Positions 34,955 through 46,014 of a DNA stretch of 64,000 bases are shown here, piece by piece. The translations under genes and the position numbers were made by a program. The notes under the pieces were generated by a model, which was not told the origin of the DNA, made no database searches, and was given only the letters and a program-made list of their open reading frames with translations. The stretch is from Actinomycetota bacterium (GTDB taxonomy: Bacteria; Actinomycetota; Coriobacteriia; Anaerosomatales; Anaerosomataceae), in NCBI GenBank assembly GCA_004348925.1, contig RCMX01000006.1, forward strand, positions 151,223 to 215,222. Reading direction: 5' to 3'. Within the stretch, counting starts at the first letter, position 1, and every line of letters starts with the position of its first letter.

Positions 34955-36294
34955 GGCTGTCCGAAGACCAGGTTCGCGCACTGGCGGCGCGCGCAGTAGC
35001 GCTCACGCACGCCGACGAGGCCGAGGCCGTCGTGATGGCGAACGACGCCGCACTCACACGCTTCGCGAACAACCGCATCCACCAGAACGTGGCCGAGGAG
35101 AACACCACCGTCTCGGTGCGCGCCGTTCTCGGCACGCGCACTGGCGTTGCGAGCACCAACCGCCTGGATGACGACGCGCTCGCCGCGTGCTGCGAGGCAG
35201 CGGTCGCAGCCGCGCGCGTGGCGCCCGAGGACCCCGCGTTCCCGGGACTGCCCGCACCCGCGCCCATCGAGCGCATCGAGCGTGTGTGCGCGAGCACGCA
35301 GGCGTTCGATGCCGAGGCACGCGCGCACGCAGCGGCCTCGATCATCGAGCAGTCGAAGGTGCGGGGTCTCTCGGCAGCAGGGACCGTCGCCCGCGTGGAC
35401 TACGCGGTCGGCATCGCGAACTCTCGCGGCATCGACGCCGCGATGGCCGTCACCGACGTGAAGGCGACCGTGCTCTCCACCGGCACCGACGGCGGCAGCG
35501 GCTGGGCGTCGTGGCTGGGGTGCGATGCGTCGCGCTTCGCGCCCGAGGCGCTCGGCGACGAGGCCGCTACGCTCGCGCAGCGCTCGGAAGTGCCCGGCTC
35601 GCTCGATCCGGGCGCGTACGCGGTCGTGCTTGCGCCCGAGGCCGTCTCGGACGTGCTCGACTTCCTTGGCTATCTCGGCTTCGGCGCGCAAGCCGTCGAC
35701 GAGAAGTCGTCGTTCATCGCCGGACACGAAGGCGAGCGGCTCCTCTCGGAGCTCATCACGCTGACCGACAACGCGCTTTCTGCCGAGACGGTCGGCCTCA
35801 CGTTCGACTTCGAGGGCTGCCCCAAGCGACGCACGCCGCTCGTGGAGGCCGGCGTCGTGCGCGGGCCCGTCACCGACTCGTACTGGGCAGCCAAGCTCGG
35901 TGTGCCGAACTCGGGACATGCGCTCCCCGCGCCCAACCCGTACGGCCCGCTACCGATGAACCTCGAGCTCGCCGCCGGCGAGACGCGAGTGGACGAGATG
36001 ATCGCAAGCGTGGAGCGCGGCCTCTACATCACGCGCTTCCACTACGTGAACGTCGAGGACCCGGTGCGCGCGGTCCTCACCGGCATGACGCGGGACGGCA
36101 CCTTCCTCATCGAGGGCGGCCGCCTCACACAGCCGGTGAAGAACGTGCGCTTCACACAGAGCGCCGTCGACGCGCTTGCGAACGTGGAGGCCGTCGGCGA
36201 CCGACGTGTGCTTGTCGGCCCCGAAGAGGGCGGCGCGAACCTCACGCCGACCCTCCTTATCGGAAGCTGGCAGGTCACCGGTCAGACGCGGTAG
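34951..36294 (+). CDS. pmbA: TldE/PmbA subunit
   Basis: The 447-residue partner of TldD. The ATG at 34951 overlaps the tldD stop; the frame continues upstream inside tldD, but that part is a shadow. It lacks the HExxxH motif, as PmbA/TldE proteins do. The N-terminal NNRIHQNVAEENTTVSVRA and C-terminal NVEDPVRAVLTGMTRDG are typical of the family. It probably forms the heterodimeric protease with TldD. Confidence 0.92.
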   Translation: MRLSEDQVRALAARAVALTHADEAEAVVMANDAALTRFANNRIHQNVAEENTTVSVRAVLGTRTGVASTNRLDDDALAACCEAAVAAARVAPEDPAFPGLPAPAPIERIERVCASTQAFDAEARAHAAASIIEQSKVRGLSAAGTVARVDYAVGIANSRGIDAAMAVTDVKATVLSTGTDGGSGWASWLGCDASRFAPEALGDEAATLAQRSEVPGSLDPGAYAVVLAPEAVSDVLDFLGYLGFGAQAVDEKSSFIAGHEGERLLSELITLTDNALSAETVGLTFDFEGCPKRRTPLVEAGVVRGPVTDSYWAAKLGVPNSGHALPAPNPYGPLPMNLELAAGETRVDEMIASVERGLYITRFHYVNVEDPVRAVLTGMTRDGTFLIEGGRLTQPVKNVRFTQSAVDALANVEAVGDRRVLVGPEEGGANLTPTLLIGSWQVTGQTR

Positions 36295-36316
36295 GGCGCT
36301 TTCGCTCTACCGCTTT
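36287..36316. terminator. Bidirectional terminator between convergent genes
   Basis: A 9-bp stem with one G-T pair (36289-36297 with 36304-36312) and a 6-base loop spans the 12-base gap between pmbA and the M6 protease gene, overlapping both ends. Short pyrimidine runs flank it. It is likely to serve both convergent transcripts. Confidence 0.5.
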
Positions 36317-38700
36317 CTCGGCCACAGCAGCACGAGCAGACCGATCATCACAAGCAGCCCGGCACCGCCGAGCTCCCACAGGATCGGGTCGACTGCCGCC
36401 AGGCCGGTCGGCCCGCCGCCACCGGGAGCGAGCGGAAGAAGCGCTGGCTCAAGCGGGTCGCCTTCGAGTTTCGTGGACTGCTCGGCGCCTGGTGCAATCG
36501 ACGCCTTCTCGGGCTCGCCTTGCGCAACGCTGCCTTCGGTATCGCTGTATGCTGCCGCACGGACATCGAAATCGAGTGTGAGATCCACGCTCTTCGCCGC
36601 CTCGGGGAGCGCGTCGGCGAAAGCCTGCGTATCCTGCGAACTCACGACGAACCTGGCCGTCGACGCCATCTCGGGCGGCAGGAGGATCCACTCGTCATCC
36701 ATCGCCATGTCGCCGGAGGTGATCGCGCCAGCCACCGGCACCTCGTACTCGCCGGTCTCGTAGTTCATGCCGATGTGCGTGCCGTCCGGCAGGTACGCGT
36801 GCAGGTCGAGATCCGGTTGCGGCATCGGCCTGCCGGTCGTCTCCTTGCTCGCCGGGCCCGAAGGGATGATGAACGGCGTGTTCGTGAGCGAGGGCTGCAG
36901 AATCGCACCGGCGCTTGTCCCACTCGCGTTGGAGACCTTCTTCACATCCTTGAGCGGCGTGAATACGACCTCGTTCTCGCTGGCTGCGGAGGAGAACTTC
37001 CCGTCCTTCAGTTCAACCCTGAAGCGCTTCGACGGGTCTTCCCATGAAGGATGCGAGTTGTCGAGCCGGGCCAGGTAGTTGGCGCTTCTCGGCCAGCCGG
37101 GACGCGACTCGTTCTCTTTTCCGATTCGCTCCTTCACGCGATACACGATGACGCCGTCGCCTTGCCATCCGGAGATGTCCATCCAATCGGGCGCGATTGC
37201 CGAGAGCTTCCCAAGCGGCCGCTTCGCGTATTCCTGGTCGAGTGCGCGACCGTCCATGATGACACGGACCTTGCGACCGTCTGCCTCCTTGTACTCGATG
37301 CACGGTATCTCTATGGCGTCCGAGGTGCCCGTGCTAAGCGTCGGCACGGTGAGCGTCTGCTTCTTGGCGTCCACACCGATGGTGCGGAATTCGGCCCAGT
37401 CGAGCCACCACTGCGAGAAGCCGCTCAGCGTCGATCCGCCCTCGGATTTCGACATGAGGAAGTAGTTGCCCACCGTCTCCTGCGTGATGTTCGAGTACTC
37501 ATCTACGCCGTAGTAGTCCTTGCCGTTGGGGTACAGGTCGGGCAGCGAGTATGTCTCAACGCCGAGATCGCTTTCGCGGCGATCGTTACCCAGGCCATGT
37601 GCGATCTCGTGCAACAACGTTCCGACAGACCACCGTGGCATGTGGATGAAGCTCCCACGACGCTCACCAAGGCCCTTGCCTGCTATGGCCGGGACGCCCT
37701 TCTCGGACATGCTCTGCCACGGATACGACCAGCCGAGGTACCCCGACCAGAAGTTGCGCCAGTTCGGCGCCTGTTTGTCCGACGCAGGAGGGACGAACAC
37801 GATGACGCTCACGGGCCCGTCGGCCGCCTTGGCCGCTGCATCCGCCACACCGGATGCGCCGAGCACCTCCTGGAAGTACTCCCATGTCTCGCCGAACTTG
37901 TCCTCGTACGCCTTGACGGGGTAGCCCTTGCCGTCGTTCGTGAGCCACTCGATGGAGCCCACCAGCGCTTTGCCGTGGCTCATGACCTTCCAGTAGTCGG
38001 CGGATGCCTCGACGAGATCCTTGAGCTTCTGCTCATCTCCAGATTCGAATTCATAGCCTTTGGGTGTCGCCATAACGCACACCAGGTGAAGCGTGTCGTC
38101 GGGGATGACACCACCGCTGTTGCGCACTTCCGGCGCGGTGCCATCGGGCACGTCGATCCTGATCGACGTCATCTCGCTCTGTAGGGTGCCGTCACCGATG
38201 ACGGTGCTTGCGAACACGACATTCTCCCCGGGCGCGAAGTCTGCAGCGTCAAGCGCCAGTGCCCACTCTCGCGTCTCGGGAGAAACGGAAGCAACACGGG
38301 TGGCAGAGGTGACCTCGTAGGTCGCAGGCGTGTAGTCGCCCTCGTCGGCAACGCGCGCGGGGACGACGTACAGGCGAACGTACGCGGCATCGTTCGGGTT
38401 CGCCTCGGCCACGTCTTTGGCGAGCGCGGACCACCCCTTCACGTCGACCGGCAGCCCCGGCTGCTCACCGTTGGCGGGTGTCACGATCCACGGCTGCGGG
38501 ACCCCCACCGCACCGGTCACTCCGATCTGCTCCAGGAACGTCTCGTAGTCGATCTTCGTCTCATTGACCGGCTTCTGGACCTCGGGCGTGTCGCCGCCGG
38601 TACACGCTATCGAGAAGCTTGCGAATAGCGAGATGGTGAGCAGTGCCGCAACGAGCGTGCGGGCGCGGCGGCTACGAAGACGCTCAGCCACGGGACTCAC
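36307..38700 (-). CDS. Exported M6-like metalloprotease with C-terminal membrane anchor
   Basis: A 797-residue exported protein. The N-terminus (ISLFASFSIACTGG) looks like a lipoprotein signal with Cys33. The catalytic segment LLHEIAHGLGNDRRESD matches HExxHxxGxxD of M6 (immune inhibitor A-like) metalloproteases, with a further Met-containing stretch (NYFLMSK) after it. The C-terminus ends in a helix (GLLVMIGLLVLLW) and PRKR, so the protease would be held at the cell surface. The GTG start lies 17 bases inside the LppM-like gene, so it is translationally coupled to the zinc-ribbon operon. Its target is unknown; the neighbouring surface proteins are candidates. Confidence 0.82.
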   Translation of the reverse strand: MSPVAERLRSRRARTLVAALLTISLFASFSIACTGGDTPEVQKPVNETKIDYETFLEQIGVTGAVGVPQPWIVTPANGEQPGLPVDVKGWSALAKDVAEANPNDAAYVRLYVVPARVADEGDYTPATYEVTSATRVASVSPETREWALALDAADFAPGENVVFASTVIGDGTLQSEMTSIRIDVPDGTAPEVRNSGGVIPDDTLHLVCVMATPKGYEFESGDEQKLKDLVEASADYWKVMSHGKALVGSIEWLTNDGKGYPVKAYEDKFGETWEYFQEVLGASGVADAAAKAADGPVSVIVFVPPASDKQAPNWRNFWSGYLGWSYPWQSMSEKGVPAIAGKGLGERRGSFIHMPRWSVGTLLHEIAHGLGNDRRESDLGVETYSLPDLYPNGKDYYGVDEYSNITQETVGNYFLMSKSEGGSTLSGFSQWWLDWAEFRTIGVDAKKQTLTVPTLSTGTSDAIEIPCIEYKEADGRKVRVIMDGRALDQEYAKRPLGKLSAIAPDWMDISGWQGDGVIVYRVKERIGKENESRPGWPRSANYLARLDNSHPSWEDPSKRFRVELKDGKFSSAASENEVVFTPLKDVKKVSNASGTSAGAILQPSLTNTPFIIPSGPASKETTGRPMPQPDLDLHAYLPDGTHIGMNYETGEYEVPVAGAITSGDMAMDDEWILLPPEMASTARFVVSSQDTQAFADALPEAAKSVDLTLDFDVRAAAYSDTEGSVAQGEPEKASIAPGAEQSTKLEGDPLEPALLPLAPGGGGPTGLAAVDPILWELGGAGLLVMIGLLVLLWPRKR

Positions 38701-40150
38701 CGCCTTTCGTCCGCCAGGGGTATGCGACCAGGCCGTACATCAGCAGTCCCGCCGCGACCGCGAAGAGCCAGCGCACCACGATGACCCACGCCTGTTGCGC
38801 CGCCACCAACCGGCTGTCGGCGTCGGAGGTGCCGGTGAGCGACTCGGCGAACAGGAACCGCCGTCCGCCCATCGTCATGTCCCATGCGCCGCCGCTGTCG
38901 GCGTTCGTGCCGAGCACCGTCCCGGGGAGCTTCAACTCATAGCGCAGCGTCGAGGCGTCGATCTCCTCTTTGAGTTTGTCGTACGCGGTGGTGTCGGCAC
39001 CCTCCTCGGGCGCGTCAGGATAGACCGTCGACGTGTCGAGCGACGCGAGGAAGAAGACGTGTCGGCCGTCGGGCAGGTCCACAGCGCCCAGCCGAGACCA
39101 GCTCGTGCCCACTGCCCCACTTGTCGCGCCGAAGTCCTCGAGGGTCGCGAACGTGCGGTCGAGCTTCAGCTGGTTGGTGGTGCGTTCAACGTTCAAGCCA
39201 AGCCGCTCTTGCGAAGCGATCCATGACTCGATGAACGGCTCGGCGTTCGGCAGCCCCATCATCTCGGTCATCGACTCTTCGCCGGTGACGACGCGCGTGT
39301 TCACGGTGCCGGAACCGTCCCGGTTCACCTCGGTGCGGATCACGATTTCGCATCCGCCGAGGAGCGTCGTGGCGATCAATCCCGCCGCAACGACCGCGGC
39401 AGCGAGCGAGCGCCGGTTCCGCGTCCGCCGCACGCGCACGAAGACGGCCGCCAGCGCGAACGCCCCGGCCGCGATGAGCGTGAGCATCGCCAGATCGCGG
39501 TTGCGGCCCTTGTCGCCGGGAACGCCCGGCGAGACCGCCAGCGCGAGCAGCTCGTCACCGGTGGGCGCGAGCACGCCCGCCACGCTCACGGCGCGGCCCT
39601 TCGCGAACACCTGGCCGCCACCGGGATACCCGACGACGATACGGGTGCCGTCCGCCTCGAACGCAGCCACGGCAAGCCCGCCTTCGCTGCCGGTCGAGAC
39701 CGGTTCGCCCGCTAGCAGCACGATGCGCTGCTGGTACGTGTCGGGCTCGGCCTTCAGCGCCGCGGGTGTCGCCCAGACAGGGCGCTTCGTGAAGACGACC
39801 GGGTCTGCGGGCCCCTCGGAAAGCCATGCCGAGGCGGTCGCGCGGTCTGCTGCTCGCGTCATCCCGGGCAGATGCGTCGCGTACTGCGGCAACAGCCCGA
39901 TGCCGGCGCAAACCACGAGGGCGAGCAGCCATGCGAGGGCGATTCGCGCGCCGCGCGCCCACGCACCTGGCTTGCGGGGCGCCTTGGGTGCGACTGGGAG
40001 CTGCTCGGCAACGGGAACTGGGACGGTTGCAGGCTGCTCGGGCGGCGCCACCTTGCTGCCGCACGCTGCGCAGAAGAGCGCCCCGTCTTCAAGCGGCGTC
40101 CCGCACTGTTCGCAGAACCGGGCGGCCGGCAGACCCTTGCGAGCACTCAC
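38684..40150 (-). CDS. Zinc-ribbon protein with LppM-like (DUF3153) domain
   Basis: A 488-residue membrane protein. The N-terminal zinc ribbon has C13, C16, C27 and C30 (FCEQCG...FCAACG). Hydrophobic helices lie near 68-90, 222-245 and 250-268. The last runs into LLGGCEIVIRTEVNRDGSG, which looks like the signal and opening of an LppM-type lipoprotein, here internal. A C-terminal helix (about 455-478) ends it. LppM is a mycobacterial envelope protein of unclear molecular role. The GTG start overlaps the amidase stop (GTGA). The fusion of ribbon, extra membrane region and LppM-like domain is unusual. Confidence 0.75.
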   Translation of the reverse strand: MSARKGLPAARFCEQCGTPLEDGALFCAACGSKVAPPEQPATVPVPVAEQLPVAPKAPRKPGAWARGARIALAWLLALVVCAGIGLLPQYATHLPGMTRAADRATASAWLSEGPADPVVFTKRPVWATPAALKAEPDTYQQRIVLLAGEPVSTGSEGGLAVAAFEADGTRIVVGYPGGGQVFAKGRAVSVAGVLAPTGDELLALAVSPGVPGDKGRNRDLAMLTLIAAGAFALAAVFVRVRRTRNRRSLAAAVVAAGLIATTLLGGCEIVIRTEVNRDGSGTVNTRVVTGEESMTEMMGLPNAEPFIESWIASQERLGLNVERTTNQLKLDRTFATLEDFGATSGAVGTSWSRLGAVDLPDGRHVFFLASLDTSTVYPDAPEEGADTTAYDKLKEEIDASTLRYELKLPGTVLGTNADSGGAWDMTMGGRRFLFAESLTGTSDADSRLVAAQQAWVIVVRWLFAVAAGLLMYGLVAYPWRTKGGESRG

Positions 40151-40956
40151 GGCAGGTCACTCTCCCTGAGCGAATCGGCCAGCGCCTCTGCGATGGCCTG
40201 TCGGTTGGCATCTTCGAGCAGAAAGGCGCGATCGGCCTTGTTGTCACCGATCTCCAGCAGCAGTCGCGTACCGGCCTTGTTGCGCTCAGGCTCAAGGCTG
40301 TAGAGGCGTTCCTCGCGGATCCCGCGGTCCGGCAGTCCCGTCGCCGAGAGAAGCGCGGCCTTCAGTCGCTCGGCCAGCGCGCGACTGCGCCCATCACTCG
40401 GCATGCACATGCCGAGGATGCCGCTTGGCGCTCCCCCGTCGTTGTGCACGGAGATGAAGACGGTGGCCCTGGCAGCATTCGCCTTCGCGATCTCGGAATC
40501 GAACGCAGCGGCGTTCTTCGGCTGCGGACGGTAGCCGTTCGAGCCGAAGAGCCCCATGCCGGTCTCCCACGCCTTCACGTGCGTGAACTCGGGCAGCAGC
40601 GCGATCGTGCGGTCCACGATGTCACCGCAGATCACGTACTCCTCCCAGTCGACGCCGGTATCGGCCTGGTGTGACGGCTGCCAGGCGATCACCGAGCTGC
40701 GCCGAGTGGGACGCGGGGCGACACCCTCGGCCGCCGTCGGGGCTATGCCCGCGAGCGCACCGCACGCGGCGGCGACGCGTCGACCCTCGACGACGAGTGC
40801 ACGGGTGAGCGCGCGTGCAGGCACGCGCGTGAGGCCGTAGGCGGCGGTACCGGCGAGAGCGAGCGTGACCAGCACGCCGACCGCCATTCGAGCGCGACGG
40901 AGGCGCTGGCGACGCAGCGCCGACGCCGCCTTGCCGCGGGTGGCCGCTTCGCTCAC
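40147..40956 (-). CDS. N-acetylmuramoyl-L-alanine amidase (Amidase_3 family)
   Basis: A 269-residue zinc amidase that cuts the peptide stem from glycan. The GTG at 40956 starts one base after the upstream stop. An N-terminal helix (VGVLVTLALAGTAAYGL) exports or anchors it. The catalytic domain shows the Glu in AWETG, the zinc His in VFISVHNDGG, and the terminal Glu in LLLEIGDNKADR. The usual first zinc His of the family (GHGG) is not seen; the corresponding region reads AWQPSHQADTG, with a single His. This is the only recognisable cell-wall enzyme in the zinc-ribbon operon and the best clue to its function. Confidence 0.85.
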   Translation of the reverse strand: MSEAATRGKAASALRRQRLRRARMAVGVLVTLALAGTAAYGLTRVPARALTRALVVEGRRVAAACGALAGIAPTAAEGVAPRPTRRSSVIAWQPSHQADTGVDWEEYVICGDIVDRTIALLPEFTHVKAWETGMGLFGSNGYRPQPKNAAAFDSEIAKANAARATVFISVHNDGGAPSGILGMCMPSDGRSRALAERLKAALLSATGLPDRGIREERLYSLEPERNKAGTRLLLEIGDNKADRAFLLEDANRQAIAEALADSLRESDLP

Positions 40957-40957
40957 C

Positions 40958-41776
40958 CTACTGCCGAACGGGCTCTGCGTTGGGATACTGAGCTTCGAAC
41001 TGCTCTCGCGAGTCCGTGCTAGCTGGCGACAGGATAGGCCGCCATGCGGACTCGGAAGGATCGTCGACTGCGGCCTCGGCGGCCCCAAGCATCGCATTCA
41101 TGCGCTTCTCAAGCAGTCCATAGAGGCCGAGCAGCGTCTCTTTCTGCGGCCGATATGCCGCCGAGACGCTCGCGTCATCGAGTGTCTGCTTCTGGCCCGA
41201 CACAGTGTCGAGCAGCGCCTGGCACTTCTCGACGAGCGTCTTGCGCACCCCGAGGTCTGCCGAGCCGATGCTCGCGTTGAACACTTCATAGGCGAATCCG
41301 GTCCCGCCGTAGGTGCCGTCGGTGTTTGCACGACCGACCTGGTCTGCGAGATCGCTGAGTTTGCCGTAGTGCTCGGCGATCACGTCGTACGACGCGTCGT
41401 CGCCAAGGGCGGCGGTGTCATCGGTAGCGTCGGTCCCCTCGTCGGTACCGCCGGCCTTCGTGTCGCCCAACGCCTTCTTGTCACTTGAGGCCGTACCTTC
41501 GTCGGTACGTGACGCCGCCACACCCGCCGTGTCGAACACGCCCGTGAAGTACAGTCCCGCAGTGACTGCGGCGCCAACGACGAGCACGCCGACGATCGCC
41601 AGCGCGACGATGAGGCCGGTGTTGGAGCGCTTCGTCGCCGCGATCGGTCCGCCGCCGACGATCGGCGGCATCGGCGCGGTCACGCCGGCACCCTCGGGCA
41701 CCTTCAGCTGGAGCCCGCAGCCGTTGCAGAAGACAGCGTCATCATTCAGTTGCCGGCCACACGAACGACAGAACAT
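40958..41776 (-). CDS. Zinc-ribbon single-pass membrane protein
   Basis: A 272-residue protein I cannot assign beyond its ribbon. C3, C6, C17 and C20 (MFCRSCG...FCNGCG) form an N-terminal cytoplasmic zinc ribbon. One transmembrane helix follows at about 53-77, then an acidic Thr/Asp-rich linker and a helical outer domain (about 125-270). GAGGAGGACGCGG precedes the ATG. Topology (ribbon inside, helical domain outside) is shared with the two paralogues encoded at 41976-43475. Confidence 0.75.
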   Translation of the reverse strand: MFCRSCGRQLNDDAVFCNGCGLQLKVPEGAGVTAPMPPIVGGGPIAATKRSNTGLIVALAIVGVLVVGAAVTAGLYFTGVFDTAGVAASRTDEGTASSDKKALGDTKAGGTDEGTDATDDTAALGDDASYDVIAEHYGKLSDLADQVGRANTDGTYGGTGFAYEVFNASIGSADLGVRKTLVEKCQALLDTVSGQKQTLDDASVSAAYRPQKETLLGLYGLLEKRMNAMLGAAEAAVDDPSESAWRPILSPASTDSREQFEAQYPNAEPVRQ

Positions 41777-41795
41777 CCGCGTCCTCCTCGTCCTG

Positions 41796-41951
41796 TTAGT
41801 AGAGGTCTCCGTCGATCAGCTGCTCGGCGTCGAAGCCGTCGAGGCCCATATCCTCGAGCGCCTTGCTCACGTCGCGATATGCGCGCAAGGCATCTTCTGC
41901 GCCCGCGTAGAATCGGTCGCCGAGCTGCTTGCCACAATCGCGGCAGAACAT
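41796..41951 (-). CDS. 51-residue half zinc-ribbon protein
   Basis: A small gene between two larger zinc-ribbon genes. The ATG at 41951 follows GAAGGTGGG. The product opens MFCRDCGKQLGDRFY, with one CxxC pair, and ends with a short acidic helix containing KALEDMGLDG. The head matches the MFCRSCG start of the next gene and the tail matches KSLEDMGLYE near the C-terminus of the preceding one; the second CxxC, the membrane helix and the outer domain are absent. It may be a deletion remnant, or a functional cytoplasmic protein that completes a zinc site by dimerising. Confidence 0.65.
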   Translation of the reverse strand: MFCRDCGKQLGDRFYAGAEDALRAYRDVSKALEDMGLDGFDAEQLIDGDLY

Positions 41952-41975
41952 ACGCTGCACCCACCTTCTCGTGAC

Positions 41976-42701
41976 CTAGAACATGTTCGACAGTTCGTCG
42001 CTGAGCGACTCGTACAACCCCATATCCTCCAGAGACTTCTGCATGTCAGCCGTCGACTTCTCGAGTTTGGTGGAGAAGTCGTCGGTCCGGTCGCTGAACT
42101 TCTCCGAGAGCGTGCTGCTCGTGTCGTCCGCGGTGATCTCGCCCAGCATCTCCTTCAGCACGACCAGTCCTTCGAGCATGCGGTCGTAGCTCGCTACGAG
42201 CCGGTCGTGAGACCGCTTGTACTCCTTCGGCGGCCGCAGGCCGGCGAGGTCGTCCCGCGCGGCTTGGACGCCGTCGATACCCTCCGCGACGGCGTCCTGA
42301 AGCATCGCGAGGTTCTCGTCGCCGATCGGCTCGTCGTATGACGTGTCGACGTCGTTGAAGGCTTCACCCATGGTGGTCACGGACTCCGCAGTCGCAATGA
42401 CGTCCTCGGTGACCTTGTCCTCGTATGCTGCGATATCCATCGGCTGCATGAAGAGCAGCCATCCCACACCAACAGCGCCGAGCACGACGAGGAGCATCGC
42501 TGCAGCGACGATGAAGATGGCGGGGCGGGGCCCCGTGCGTGCGGGCGGAACGGTCCCCGGCGCAACGCCAGGCATCGGCGCGGGTGCAACCACGGGCCCG
42601 GGTGCAGACACAACAGGCGCTGCGACCCACGCGTTCCCGCACTTCTCGCAGAATTGCGCCTCATCCGTGTTGGGCGCACCACACTGAGCGCAGTACTTCA
42701 T
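41976..42701 (-). CDS. Zinc-ribbon single-pass membrane protein
   Basis: A 241-residue protein, function unknown. I start at MKYCAQCG (42701), which has GGGGGAGGTCGGCG upstream, not six codons earlier. The ribbon cysteines are C4, C7, C18 and C21. A Pro/Ala linker leads to a membrane helix near 66-90 and a helical outer domain. That domain contains GLRPPKEYK, also present in the paralogue at 42765-43475, which marks a recent family expansion. The C-terminus carries SLEDMGLYESLSDEL. Confidence 0.75.
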   Translation of the reverse strand: MKYCAQCGAPNTDEAQFCEKCGNAWVAAPVVSAPGPVVAPAPMPGVAPGTVPPARTGPRPAIFIVAAAMLLVVLGAVGVGWLLFMQPMDIAAYEDKVTEDVIATAESVTTMGEAFNDVDTSYDEPIGDENLAMLQDAVAEGIDGVQAARDDLAGLRPPKEYKRSHDRLVASYDRMLEGLVVLKEMLGEITADDTSSTLSEKFSDRTDDFSTKLEKSTADMQKSLEDMGLYESLSDELSNMF

Positions 42702-42728
42702 CGCCGACCTCCCCCTCAACTATAGAAT

Positions 42729-42753
42729 GGGGCCCGGCTCTGCACCGGGCCCC
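42729..42753 (-). terminator. Stem-loop between two zinc-ribbon genes
   Basis: A perfect 9-bp stem GGGGCCCGG/CCGGGCCCC with a 7-base loop, 12 bases after the stop of the gene at 42765-43475. On the minus strand it is followed by ATTCTAT. It may be a partial terminator that lowers expression of the distal operon, or an RNA-stability element. Confidence 0.6.
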
Positions 42754-42764
42754 ACGCATGCTCG

Positions 42765-43475
42765 CTACTCGCCGTATCCCCAGCTCAAGCCGAGGTCTTC
42801 AGACGCGCGGCTCATCGCACGGTTCGCCCGACTCGCGTCCCGGGAGGTCTTCTCGTAGAAGTCGGAGATACCGTTCGAGAAGCGCTCGTAGGTGCGGCCA
42901 TCGGCGGACTTGATCAGCGCCTCGACGGCATCCCAGTAGTCCGAGCCGTAGTACGACGCCCATTCGTTCAGACGGCCATCGGCTGCCTTGTACTCCTTGG
43001 GAGGACGGAGGCCCTTGATCTTGCCTGCGGCCTCCCTGGCCATCTTCCTGGAGTCGTCGAAGACGCTCTGGAGGTCGTCGATATCGCCAGCATCGACCTT
43101 GTCCGTTGAATCGCCGTCGTAGCTGTAGTAGTCCGAGAGCGCCTGGTCCATCTCGCCCGTGGCATCACTGATCTGCACGCTGTACTCGTCGGCCTTGTCC
43201 TCATAGTCCGGCACGCTCATCGGCTTCAGGAAGATGAGATACGCCACGAGCAGGAAGACGACCACGACAGCCGCGATGATGATCTTCGCCACATCCAGGC
43301 CGGCAGGCAACTTCACCGGCGGGCTCACCGGCGGTGTTCCGGGAACGGGCTGAGCGACAGGCGGCGTGGTGACTGGAGGCGCGACGGGCGTCTCGGCAGC
43401 AATCCCGGCACCGCACTTCTCGCAGAACTTCGCGCCCTCGGCATTTGAAGCCCCACATGATGGACAGAAGCTCAT
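42765..43475 (-). CDS. Zinc-ribbon single-pass membrane protein
   Basis: A 236-residue paralogue of the protein at 41976-42701. Ribbon cysteines C4, C7, C18 and C21 (SFCPSCG...FCEKCG) are followed by a Pro/Val linker, a membrane helix (about 64-87, IIIAAVVVVFLLVAYLIFL) and a helical outer domain with KGLRPPKEYKAADGRL. The ATG overlaps the upstream stop by 4 bases. Function unknown. The shared RPPKEYK block is the most conserved outer feature and could be an interaction site. Confidence 0.76.
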   Translation of the reverse strand: MSFCPSCGASNAEGAKFCEKCGAGIAAETPVAPPVTTPPVAQPVPGTPPVSPPVKLPAGLDVAKIIIAAVVVVFLLVAYLIFLKPMSVPDYEDKADEYSVQISDATGEMDQALSDYYSYDGDSTDKVDAGDIDDLQSVFDDSRKMAREAAGKIKGLRPPKEYKAADGRLNEWASYYGSDYWDAVEALIKSADGRTYERFSNGISDFYEKTSRDASRANRAMSRASEDLGLSWGYGE

Positions 43476-43984
43476 TCCTGCTCTCCTTTCGGGTTCTCGA
43501 CCTCAGGAGCCGAGACGGAATCTTCAGCCGGTGTCGTGACCGGCGTGCCACACCGCGTGCAGAACTTGCCGTCCGCAGGCATCTGGGCGCCGCACGATTC
43601 GCACGTCGCCTTCACCTCGGGCTTGGGGAGTGCCGTGCCGCACTTCACGCAGAACGCCGCGCCCGATGCGTTCGGGGCCGAGCAGGCGGGACACGCGACG
43701 CGACCGGCGTCCTGGGATGATTCGAGCTCGCCGAGCCGCGCCTGTGTCTGCGCGATCTCAAGCTCGACGGCACGAATCTTCTCGCCAAGCTCCGTGAACG
43801 CTGCCGGATCATCGACGCCGCGACGGAACTGGTCGTATGCGACTGCACCGAGAGCCGTGAGGAGTTCGTTGCGGTTCTTGCCGAGCGTTGAGATCTTGGT
43901 CTTGAGCTTCCCGACCTCAAGCATGCGCTCGGTCTCGCTGACACCCTTGTTGAATGTCTCGTTCAGCTTGTCGACGATCCCCAT
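43472..43984 (-). CDS. Soluble coiled-coil protein with double zinc ribbon
   Basis: A 170-residue protein without a membrane helix. The first 95 residues are helical and coiled-coil-like (MGIVDKLNETFNKGVSETER, later EKIRAVELEIAQTQARLGEL). Two zinc ribbons follow: CPACS...FCVKCG (about 97-115) and CESCG...FCTRCG (about 127-142). The ATG overlaps the stop of the upstream lipoprotein gene, and its own stop overlaps the next start. As the only soluble two-ribbon member it could bridge the cytoplasmic ribbons of the membrane proteins. Confidence 0.75.
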   Translation of the reverse strand: MGIVDKLNETFNKGVSETERMLEVGKLKTKISTLGKNRNELLTALGAVAYDQFRRGVDDPAAFTELGEKIRAVELEIAQTQARLGELESSQDAGRVACPACSAPNASGAAFCVKCGTALPKPEVKATCESCGAQMPADGKFCTRCGTPVTTPAEDSVSAPEVENPKGEQE

Positions 43985-45069
43985 CAGGATTCTCCGTTCT
44001 CTACCTGCGCGCCACACGCGCGGCAGAACCTGGCACCGGCCGTCAGCGCGGTGCCGCAGGCAGCGCATGATGCGGTCTGCGCGACCGTGACGGCGGCGGA
44101 CGGCGTGGACACCGCAACGGGTGCCGCAGCGACCGGGGTCGCCTTCTTCTTGCCGAGCGCCTTCTTCACCTTTCGAACGATCAGCCATACCACGAGGACC
44201 ACGATCAGCAGCAGAACCGCTGCCGCGATTCCCGTGAACAGCCAGTCGACGACGAACGATGTGGCCGTGAACGTCTCGACCGATTCGATGTCGGCACCTT
44301 TGAGCTTCCACGGGCTCGCGCCCGCCTCGGCATCCTTGAAGGTGATGCCCGGCATGTTTACCGCAACATCAAGCTTCGAGCTCGAGATGCCATCCTCATA
44401 CGCGGTCTGGATCCACTCGGGGGCGTCGCCGGTTCCCTCGCAGTCGTAGCATTCGATGGTCCCGCTGCCGCCGCACGAGCTGCAGGAGACCTCACCGTCG
44501 CCGTCGCAGTAGTAGCACTCGCTCCAGCCGAACCAGCCATCGTACCCGCCGGTTCCGTTGCATGAGCTGCAGGTCTGGGTCCCGCCCGTGCAGTCAGGAC
44601 AATCCGAGTAACCCTGCCCGTCGCACGTCGGACACTCGGTCGGTGAGAGATCAAGCACGGGCATGGCGATTTCGACCTGATGACGCTCGACCAATATCAT
44701 GTCCGTCACCGTGTGACGAACCGTCACCTCGGTCTTCATCCCGGGGTCGTATCCCGCATCGCGGACGAAGGATTCGTCAAGCACCCCGAAGAGCACGCCT
44801 GCCGGTTTGGAGTACGAGGACGCATCGGGAAATGCTCGCTGCGCGGTGAATCCCGAGGAACTCTGCTTGACCTTCCAGCCGGCGGTCTCAAGTTCGGAGA
44901 CCTGCGCATCATCAAGTGCGACACCGCGCAGATCGACCGACTGCTGGAATGCGTTACCGGACTCGAACGTGTAGTCGGTCTTCGCCGTGACGCCCTCGCC
45001 GCAGCCGACCAGACCGAGCACCGCGAGAAGTACGATCGCGAACGCCAACAACCTGCGGTGTGCAGACAT
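43984..45069 (-). CDS. Lipoprotein with DnaJ-like cysteine-rich domain, TM helix and C-terminal zinc ribbon
   Basis: A 361-residue protein. A lipoprotein signal (VLGLVGCG, Cys23) leads to an outer domain (30-140). A cysteine-rich block at 146-214 follows, with six CxxC units, most followed by G-x-G (CPTCDGQG, CSSCNGTG, CSSCGGSG, CYDCEGTG), as in the zinc domain of DnaJ. A membrane helix lies near 270-295, then a basic stretch (KVKKALGKKK) and a cytoplasmic zinc ribbon (CAACG...CRACG). By topology the DnaJ-like module lies outside the membrane, where chaperone DnaJ never acts. It is the first gene of the run, with AAGAGGGGG before the ATG. Function unknown. Confidence 0.78.
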   Translation of the reverse strand: MSAHRRLLAFAIVLLAVLGLVGCGEGVTAKTDYTFESGNAFQQSVDLRGVALDDAQVSELETAGWKVKQSSSGFTAQRAFPDASSYSKPAGVLFGVLDESFVRDAGYDPGMKTEVTVRHTVTDMILVERHQVEIAMPVLDLSPTECPTCDGQGYSDCPDCTGGTQTCSSCNGTGGYDGWFGWSECYYCDGDGEVSCSSCGGSGTIECYDCEGTGDAPEWIQTAYEDGISSSKLDVAVNMPGITFKDAEAGASPWKLKGADIESVETFTATSFVVDWLFTGIAAAVLLLIVVLVVWLIVRKVKKALGKKKATPVAAAPVAVSTPSAAVTVAQTASCAACGTALTAGARFCRACGAQVENGES

Positions 45070-45372
45070 ACAGCCCCCTCTTCGCGTGAATCCGTACGCT
45101 ACCGTAGCCCGCCGACACTGCGGTCAAGGCCATTATTAGCACAACTTGAGAACGTACGTGGTGCCGCTCACGGCGCGTGTCGCCGCACCCGCCGTAGACA
45201 ACCGCAAGGCCCCGACGTCGTTCACACGCCGGAGCCCTGCGAAAGCTCCCCGCTCACGGCCGAGGGGCATCGCCCGGTGACGGGTCGCGTGCCGGGAACG
45301 ACCGGGTGGTCGATCCTGACAATTCCATTATCGGGCAGGTCAGCGCCGGACTTGAGCGTCCGAATGGCACAT
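45070..45372. other. Intergenic region with several stem-loops, no gene seen
   Basis: This 303-base gap separates the 3' end of the V-ATPase operon from the start of the zinc-ribbon operon, both on the minus strand. It should hold the end of one transcript and the promoter of the next. TTGACC (about 45125-45130, minus strand) with TACGGT 15 bases on is a poor candidate promoter. Self-complementary segments are dense: GGAGC/GCTCC around 45231-45247, CGACC-GGGT-GGTCG at 45299-45312 and others. No coding frame or known RNA family was recognised. Confidence 0.4.
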
Positions 45373-46014
45373 CTACCGCTCGCCAGCGGCCTCCTGGGCG
45401 GCGATGATGTCCTTCACCTTCATGAGCCGCGTGAGGTTGCCGCGCTCCGCTTCGTCGAGCTTCATCTGGATGTCCTTGATCGTCTCGGCGATCGAGGGCA
45501 TCAGCACGTACTCGAGAGCGTTCACGCGGCGACGCGTGCGCTCGATCTCAGCGGCCAGCAGCTCGATCGCCTTTTCGCGCTCCGCGAGCTCGATCATCAT
45601 CGGCACGACTTCGGCCAGAGCATCGAGCGCCCCGTCGAGCACGGCCGGCATCGTCGCAAGCGAGTACCCGCCGGGCTCGGAGAGCGTGCCGAGAACGAAC
45701 TCCGGCACGCGCACGCTCATGACCCTGCGCTCGCTTGCCTCAAGCATCTCCGCGGGTGCGCCCGAAAGCAGCGCCTGCGTGAGGTTCGCCTTGCCTGCCT
45801 CGGCACGGGCGACAGCGAGAAGGCCGTACGCGCCGATGAGGCGACCTTCAACCTCGGCGCGCAGCTTCCGGTTCGCCGAGATACGCGCGATGAACTCCTT
45901 GAGAAGCTCGTCGAACTTGTCCTTGAGCAGCTTGTGGCCGCGCTTCGCGACGTCTCCGCGTCGCTTGAGCTTGAGCAATTCCATCCGGTTGGGGTTGACC
46001 CGCATCTTCGTCAT
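45373..46014 (-). CDS. atpD: V/A-type ATP synthase subunit D
   Basis: The central-stalk subunit of the V/A-ATPase, 213 residues. The start is MTKMRVNPNRMELLKLKRR at 46014; the frame is open 21 codons upstream. The N-terminal VNPNRMELLKLKRR block and the long coiled coil with RTRRRVNALEYVLMP near the C-terminus are the family signature. It is last in the operon. Confidence 0.94.
   Translation of the reverse strand: MTKMRVNPNRMELLKLKRRGDVAKRGHKLLKDKFDELLKEFIARISANRKLRAEVEGRLIGAYGLLAVARAEAGKANLTQALLSGAPAEMLEASERRVMSVRVPEFVLGTLSEPGGYSLATMPAVLDGALDALAEVVPMMIELAEREKAIELLAAEIERTRRRVNALEYVLMPSIAETIKDIQMKLDEAERGNLTRLMKVKDIIAAQEAAGER

Follow-up and report, generated by a model that had tools for sequence, protein, structure and literature searches.

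A run of nine genes (A to I) in the window, the whole 64,000-nucleotide stretch of Actinomycetota DNA analysed here, concentrates zinc ribbons beyond chance, and it is an elaborate, lineage-specific case of a neighbourhood found across the class Coriobacteriia, namely, a gene for a soluble double-ribbon protein (B) beside genes for proteins that join a ribbon to a transmembrane (TM) segment. The products may constitute an accessory cell-envelope complex in which B docks the ribbons of its membrane partners, a reading to which we assign a probability of about 0.4.

The window comes from the 2.25-Mb, 99% complete genome of an uncultured, sediment-type bacterium, whose closest named relatives are HGW-Actinobacteria-1 and other uncultured Actinomycetota/Coriobacteriia genomes. 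The run occupies positions 36307-45069 of the minus strand, with A at the 45069 end (Table 1). All nine ORFs that an initial annotation had listed are present. Adjacent genes overlap by a few bases or are spaced by 19-63 bp, the exception being the amidase gene, whose start is uncertain; stop and start overlap at A/B, B/C, G/H and H/I, and the largest gap is between C and D (63 bp). Complete CxxC...CxxC ribbons are present in six products, as had been claimed: A (C-terminal), B (two), C, D, F, and H. Pfam PF13240 (Zn_Ribbon_1) or DZR scores above the gathering threshold in B, C, D, F and H in a protein scan, while for A Zn_Ribbon_1 reaches 23.2 bits against a cutoff of 25 in that scan and 28.2 bits in the genome scan. 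In a genome-wide profile search, seven of the nine above-cutoff Zn_Ribbon_1 matches fall inside the ~9 kb of the run, which bears out the clustering that the annotation had remarked on.

Table 1. Features of the run in window coordinates
Feature	Position	Strand	Description	Basis
A	43984..45069	-	Predicted lipoprotein	ORF, TM and lipobox scan; weak DnaJ_CXXCXGXG and Zn_Ribbon_1
B	43472..43984	-	Proposed hub: cytosolic, double zinc ribbon, no TM	DZR 8.8e-11
C	42765..43475	-	RPPKEYK family: N-terminal ribbon, one TM, helix-rich ectodomain	
C-D hairpin	42727..42755	-	12-bp hairpin in C-D gap, candidate attenuator or processing site	Folds in three genomes
D	41976..42701	-	Paralogue of C: ribbon, TM, ectodomain	
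E	41796..41951	-	Relic of third paralogue, 51 aa, half ribbon, no TM	Orthologues and DNA alignment
F	40958..41776	-	N-terminal ribbon, one TM, ectodomain	
G	40147..40953	-	Membrane-anchored Amidase_3 N-acetylmuramoyl-L-alanine amidase	PF01520
H	38684..40150	-	Ribbon and four-TM protein with OB domain	Profile scans, topology, structure model
I	36307..38700	-	Predicted lipoprotein with M6-like metalloprotease	TIGR03296; mosaic divergence

The predicted topology, called from sequence and simple hydropathy with a lipobox scan, places the ribbons inside the cell and combines them with membrane helices, in agreement with the layout first proposed. In C, D and F, the ribbon begins at residue 3 or 4, the TM segment lies near residue 60 and an outer domain follows; C and D, picked out earlier as clear paralogues by their shared RPPKEYK, have the same build. 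A is predicted to consist of a lipobox (LVGC), outer DnaJ-type CxxCxGxG repeats, one TM segment, seven basic residues and a cytoplasmic ribbon, and both the ribbon and the CxxCxGxG residues are kept in its relatives. A is not a DnaJ: the J domain is absent and the weak match is confined to the cysteine-rich domain.

H runs from an N-terminal ribbon through TM1, an extracytoplasmic OB domain, TM2, a basic loop, TM3 with a lipobox-like LGGC and a C-terminal outer domain to TM4. Residues 120-216 form a confident OB fold in the predicted model (model mean pLDDT 60), with a best Z of 9.6 in a fold search (rmsd 2.5, 83 aligned). The matches to RPA and tRNA-synthetase are generic to OB folds and uninformative on function. 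H had also been described as LppM-like, a label that sequence searches do not support: a relationship to LppM (Rv2171) finds no match in Pfam, NCBIfam or PDB sequence searches, and for the isolated C-terminal domain the LppM family is absent from a Pfam scan up to E 10 and a PDB sequence search is empty. That domain is modelled at pLDDT ~65, and the fold-search list is taken up by matches to the OB domain.

In Gram-positive bacteria, ribbon+TM proteins rank with the most common membrane proteins that still lack an explanation, and the class Coriobacteriia counts common gut genera, Eggerthella and Collinsella for example, among its members. B is itself widespread. Its N-terminal half, ~90 residues of what is probably coiled-coil-like helix, precedes the two ribbons, and homologues, many of them full length, occur in 108 of 348 class genomes and also in more distant families of the phylum. 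Twenty B regions were picked by B score and not by neighbourhood, and almost all come from other families. Within 3 kb of B, 25 ribbon+TM ORFs share its strand, against 0.31 expected from each genome's own ribbon number, and one lies on the opposite strand. At least one same-strand neighbour of this kind is found in 11 of the 20 regions and none in nine, partly due to contig ends. The outer domains near B elsewhere are VWA with YARHG, DUF5050, DUF6273, and RHS-like repeats. The same-strand excess across the class thus places the window's run within a wider kind of neighbourhood.

In the complex proposed here, A, C, D, F and H would each hold a cytoplasmic ribbon on a TM anchor and a distinct domain outside. 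B, as a soluble protein that joins a coiled coil to two ribbons, would dock the ribbons of these partners and gather the membrane proteins into one patch, much as YdjI is held by YdjG/YdjH or as GpsB binds the mini-domains of wall enzymes. The helix-rich, OB and glycan-binding-type outer domains may serve to recognise material of the wall or envelope, the amidase would trim peptidoglycan, and the lipoprotein protease would clear or process surface protein. The cytoplasmic dock would stay constant, with enzyme and recognition modules exchangeable on it. A membrane-anchored envelope complex is plausible. An extension to all Coriobacteriia, with B as the common dock and the ribbon as a cytoplasmic address tag for exchangeable surface modules in one envelope machine, is a speculation that we hold to be unlikely; its modules would be a wall amidase, proteases of different kinds and glycan binders. 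If the soluble double-ribbon protein is a shared dock, a large orphan group would gain a testable role in organising the envelope.

The association of these genes is not confined to the window. A rarity of the genes as neighbours would speak against a cluster; in synteny comparisons the cluster held. In two genomes of the same genus (G018 and G020, the G020 contig stopping inside I), the order is A-B-C-(D-E)n-F-G-H-I, between the genes for V-ATPase subunit D and TldE/TldD. A-H-I are together in two distant families and H-I with the amidase in a third (one order), and in other families the A-H-I linkage is found at different genomic sites. One distant family (f14) has C1-B-C2-A-H-I in G055 and G061 and A-H-I on a short contig of G056. 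In G033 (family f5), V-ATPase D-C1-C-B-F... lies on one contig and the amidase, ribbon-F, I and H on another; its F slot bears a NADase-type glycan-binding domain. H occurs in seven of 398 class genomes and on six contigs of the genome collection and nowhere else, and every instance is adjoined by at least one other gene of the run.

The site itself is variable. V-ATPase D and TldE are convergent neighbours throughout the order, and the gap between their matched coding regions is 9085 bp in the window's genome, 40 bp and empty in a congener (G019), and about 30-470 bp in roughly half of the genomes. Smaller sets occupy it elsewhere: F and G only in G017 (1949 bp), B, C and two C/D relatives in G012 (3084 bp), two C/D types in G034 (1940 bp), and two ribbon genes in G005 (3460 bp). 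Unrelated cargo of up to 11.5 kb in other genera rules out a dedicated ribbon site. Ribbon sets are one of the frequent occupants of a permissive vatD/tldE junction.

Gene E documents decay inside the run. It had been counted as a seventh gene with half a ribbon, and the ORF is present, but it is an internally deleted relic rather than a functional seventh member. Its sequence (MFCRDCGKQLGD-RFYAGAED...LIDGDLY) consists of the N- and C-terminal ends of a paralogue, fused, and the same two ends belong to a 230-aa gene at the same place in G018. Full-length orthologues exist in G018 and G020, the latter having both the E type and the D type in duplicate. A DNA alignment steps from window 41917 (G018 locus 10102) to 41912 (locus 10620), which corresponds to a net in-frame loss of ~513 nt. 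The half ribbon thus reflects decay within a tandem paralogue array and not a special design.

The tandem duplication of D/E pairs in G020, the decay of E, and a junction that is empty in one congener and filled with unrelated cargo in other genera are also what would be expected if the ribbons were passive. They would then be zinc-stabilised N-terminal caps for folding or topology, and the run would have grown by duplication and by the gathering of envelope genes at a permissive site, with no complex. Ribbon+TM proteins are indeed widespread in the class, the 20 genomes with B having between 4 and 38 Zn_Ribbon_1 matches each, and a role of the motif in stability is preferred by the authors of the Lactococcus study considered next (PMC4628341). 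Such an origin leaves unexplained why a soluble double-ribbon gene lies beside same-strand ribbon+TM genes across the class, and why A, H and I are linked at differing sites in other families. We regard it as somewhat doubtful.

The initial annotation knew of no described system of this composition. As far as the literature was searched, the exact gene set is new, but operons for zinc-ribbon membrane proteins, llmg_0524-0526 and ydjFGHI among them, have been studied and linked to wall or envelope phenotypes (PMC4628341; PMC8581546). In Lactococcus lactis, the adjacent genes llmg_0524-0525-0526 encode membrane proteins with CX2CX10CX2C zinc motifs, and deletion of the Llmg_0524 motif slows growth and alters lysozyme resistance, which points to the cell wall (PMC4628341). 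The likeness to the present run lies in the neighbouring genes for zinc-ribbon membrane proteins and in the wall phenotype. However, the Lactococcus set is limited to two ribbon proteins and a small hydrophobic one, and in the available portion of that report there is no mention of an amidase, a protease, a lipoprotein or a soluble partner with a double ribbon (PMC4628341). GpsB, a soluble protein, docks wall enzymes via their short cytoplasmic mini-domains; it resembles the proposed hub B by analogy, and zinc ribbons are not reported for it (PMC6335420).

In Bacillus subtilis pspA-ydjGHI, YdjG has two ribbons and a TM segment (PMC8581546; PMC11237479), YdjI, a soluble zinc-finger protein, and PspA depend on YdjG and YdjH for their place at the membrane, and loss of YdjG/H disturbs the sites of wall synthesis under stress (PMC8581546). 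The pairing of a membrane ribbon protein with a soluble zinc-finger protein is common to both systems, and B, in its proposed role, can be likened to YdjI. The Bacillus system differs in being based on PspA and an SPFH protein, neither of which is among the nine genes here, and in having no amidase or protease. It also serves as a precedent for transmembrane sensing, in which the outer domains would detect wall or membrane stress, the ribbons would signal to B and the protease would be regulated, as in modules of the PSP or TcaA type: recruitment of the YdjI/PspA stress complex requires YdjG (PMC8581546). The single-TM layout with parts inside and outside and the OB and F5/8-type glycan-binding outer domains are in keeping with such a function. 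Yet none of the nine genes of the run encodes a sigma or anti-sigma factor, a kinase, PspA or an SPFH protein. Scores against the TcaA model are weak, 11.7-15.8 bits against 550, with matches that cover the ribbon and TM region only. Sensing is an unlikely explanation.

G encodes the amidase of the proposed complex. The longest ORF of G spans 40147-41097, and its upstream 140 bp overlap F; translation probably starts at the GTG at 40953, immediately past the F stop. One TM segment is followed by Amidase_3 (PF01520, 1.3e-11, 45.3 bits against a cutoff of 27), so that the wall amidase named in the initial annotation stands. The candidate catalytic or zinc motifs PSHQ, WxEY, SVHxDGG and LLEIGDN are common to relatives, and the Pfam match begins past the first ligand region. 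The amidase is present in seven of 69 genomes of the order. What ties the amidase and the protease to the complex is gene order, since both are without a ribbon. Neither would be an obligatory partner of B, because an amidase is missing from the f14 versions and G017 retains F and the amidase alone.

The protease I has a lipobox (SIAC), an HEIAHGLG motif and a C-terminal hydrophobic anchor (LLWPRKR). Like M6 metalloproteases (TIGR03296), it has HExxHxxG, a downstream LPDLY and an LMS turn; unlike them, it carries an insertion between HEIAHGLG and LPDLY and the C-terminal anchor. TIGR03296 scores 19.3 bits (8e-4) here and 40.5 bits (2.9e-10) in the G018 orthologue, which backs the M6-like call of the annotation, but both scores are far below the curated cutoff of 110.8, so M6-like is as far as the assignment goes.

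I also differs sharply between close relatives. Between the window and G018, TldE/TldD are 96-98% identical, B, C and H 91-92%, the amidase about 80%, F 78%, D 77%, and I 42%, a pattern consistent with a conserved frame (B, C, H) and changing outer parts (D, F, I). Within I, the last 47 residues are 87% and residues 61-750 35% identical, and the genes on its flanks are 77-99% identical. The groupings also disagree: A, B, C, D, F and H of the window pair with G018 to the exclusion of G020, with the amidase at almost equal distances, whereas residues 36-115 of I are 84% identical between G018 and G020 and only 53-54% between the window and either. These comparisons fit an internal module exchanged between conserved ends, very fast divergence being less likely. 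In three f14 relatives, I keeps the N-terminal lipoprotein part and a WPRR anchor, has lost HExxH and carries C, H and D/N motifs in a middle of another kind (SGLCFGFA...GHAVTPF...VWDNNHP). A papain-like cysteine protease was considered for that middle and set aside as a guess from motifs; an AlphaFold model is uninformative (pLDDT 34), and Pfam and PDB profiles are empty.

An exchangeable protease slot would, if real, show a surface enzyme being swapped on a fixed membrane frame. The divergent middle of I between congeners, the other middle between the same ends in f14, and the patchy presence at the junction would also suit a surface apparatus under phage, competitor or substrate pressure, with protease and ectodomain modules swapped for specificity. 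Against this, mobility and defence genes are not seen in the run, and dN/dS between the window and G018 is 0.06-0.15 in the other run genes with valid estimates (amidase left out). We consider this explanation very unlikely.

The gap between C and D holds a stable hairpin of 10-12 bp in three genomes, and no more than these three sequences support it. It is uncalled by a terminator scan and its T run is weak. Because of the hairpin, a plain single operon free of internal control becomes less probable, and the run is perhaps not transcribed evenly as one unit. As a conserved element the hairpin hints at unequal expression, which counts against one complex. One of its pairs is compensatory: G020 has GGGACCCGG/CCGGGTCCC where the other two genomes have GGGGCCCGG/CCGGGCCCC, a change on both sides that keeps the pairing.

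The convergent arrangement of the V-ATPase D and TldE genes (the vatD/tldE junction), between which the operon sits, is kept throughout the order, as judged by comparison of its genomes. The gap between the two genes varies from 30-40 bp at the smallest to 11.5 kb at the largest, and the cargo of the junction changes from genus to genus. In another family (L141 of genome G043 and L142 of G042), about 9-10 kb of cargo lies between vatD and tldE, with ORFs of 1410/1422 aa that have 6-8 predicted TM segments, and further ORFs of 949/932 aa. In five genomes from two genera (loci L149, L150, L151, L152, and L157), the junction holds one single-TM protein of 341-365 aa.

The CxxCxGxG repeats of the predicted lipoprotein A are multiplied to many copies in the distant family f14. 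An extracytoplasmic position is unusual for a cysteine-rich zinc finger. The C1 proteins of f14 have an extra beta-rich C-terminal domain beyond the helical ectodomain, with a weak match to PPC. In f20, a distant family within the same class, locus L090 (G091) has a run of six adjacent ribbon genes, a homologue of B, the double-ribbon protein, among them.

Coordinates of the junction and of features in the operon and in f14
Feature	Location	Strand	Remark
vatD/tldE junction	window 36294-45376		convergent genes, V-ATPase D/TldE
Hairpin between paralogues C and D	window 42727-42755	minus	conserved, with compensatory change
DnaJ-type CxxCxGxG repeats of A	window 44360-44640		predicted outside the membrane
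f14 counterpart of A repeat region	L045:10615-11976		
f14 C1 proteins	L045:13499-14584; L046:13468-14541
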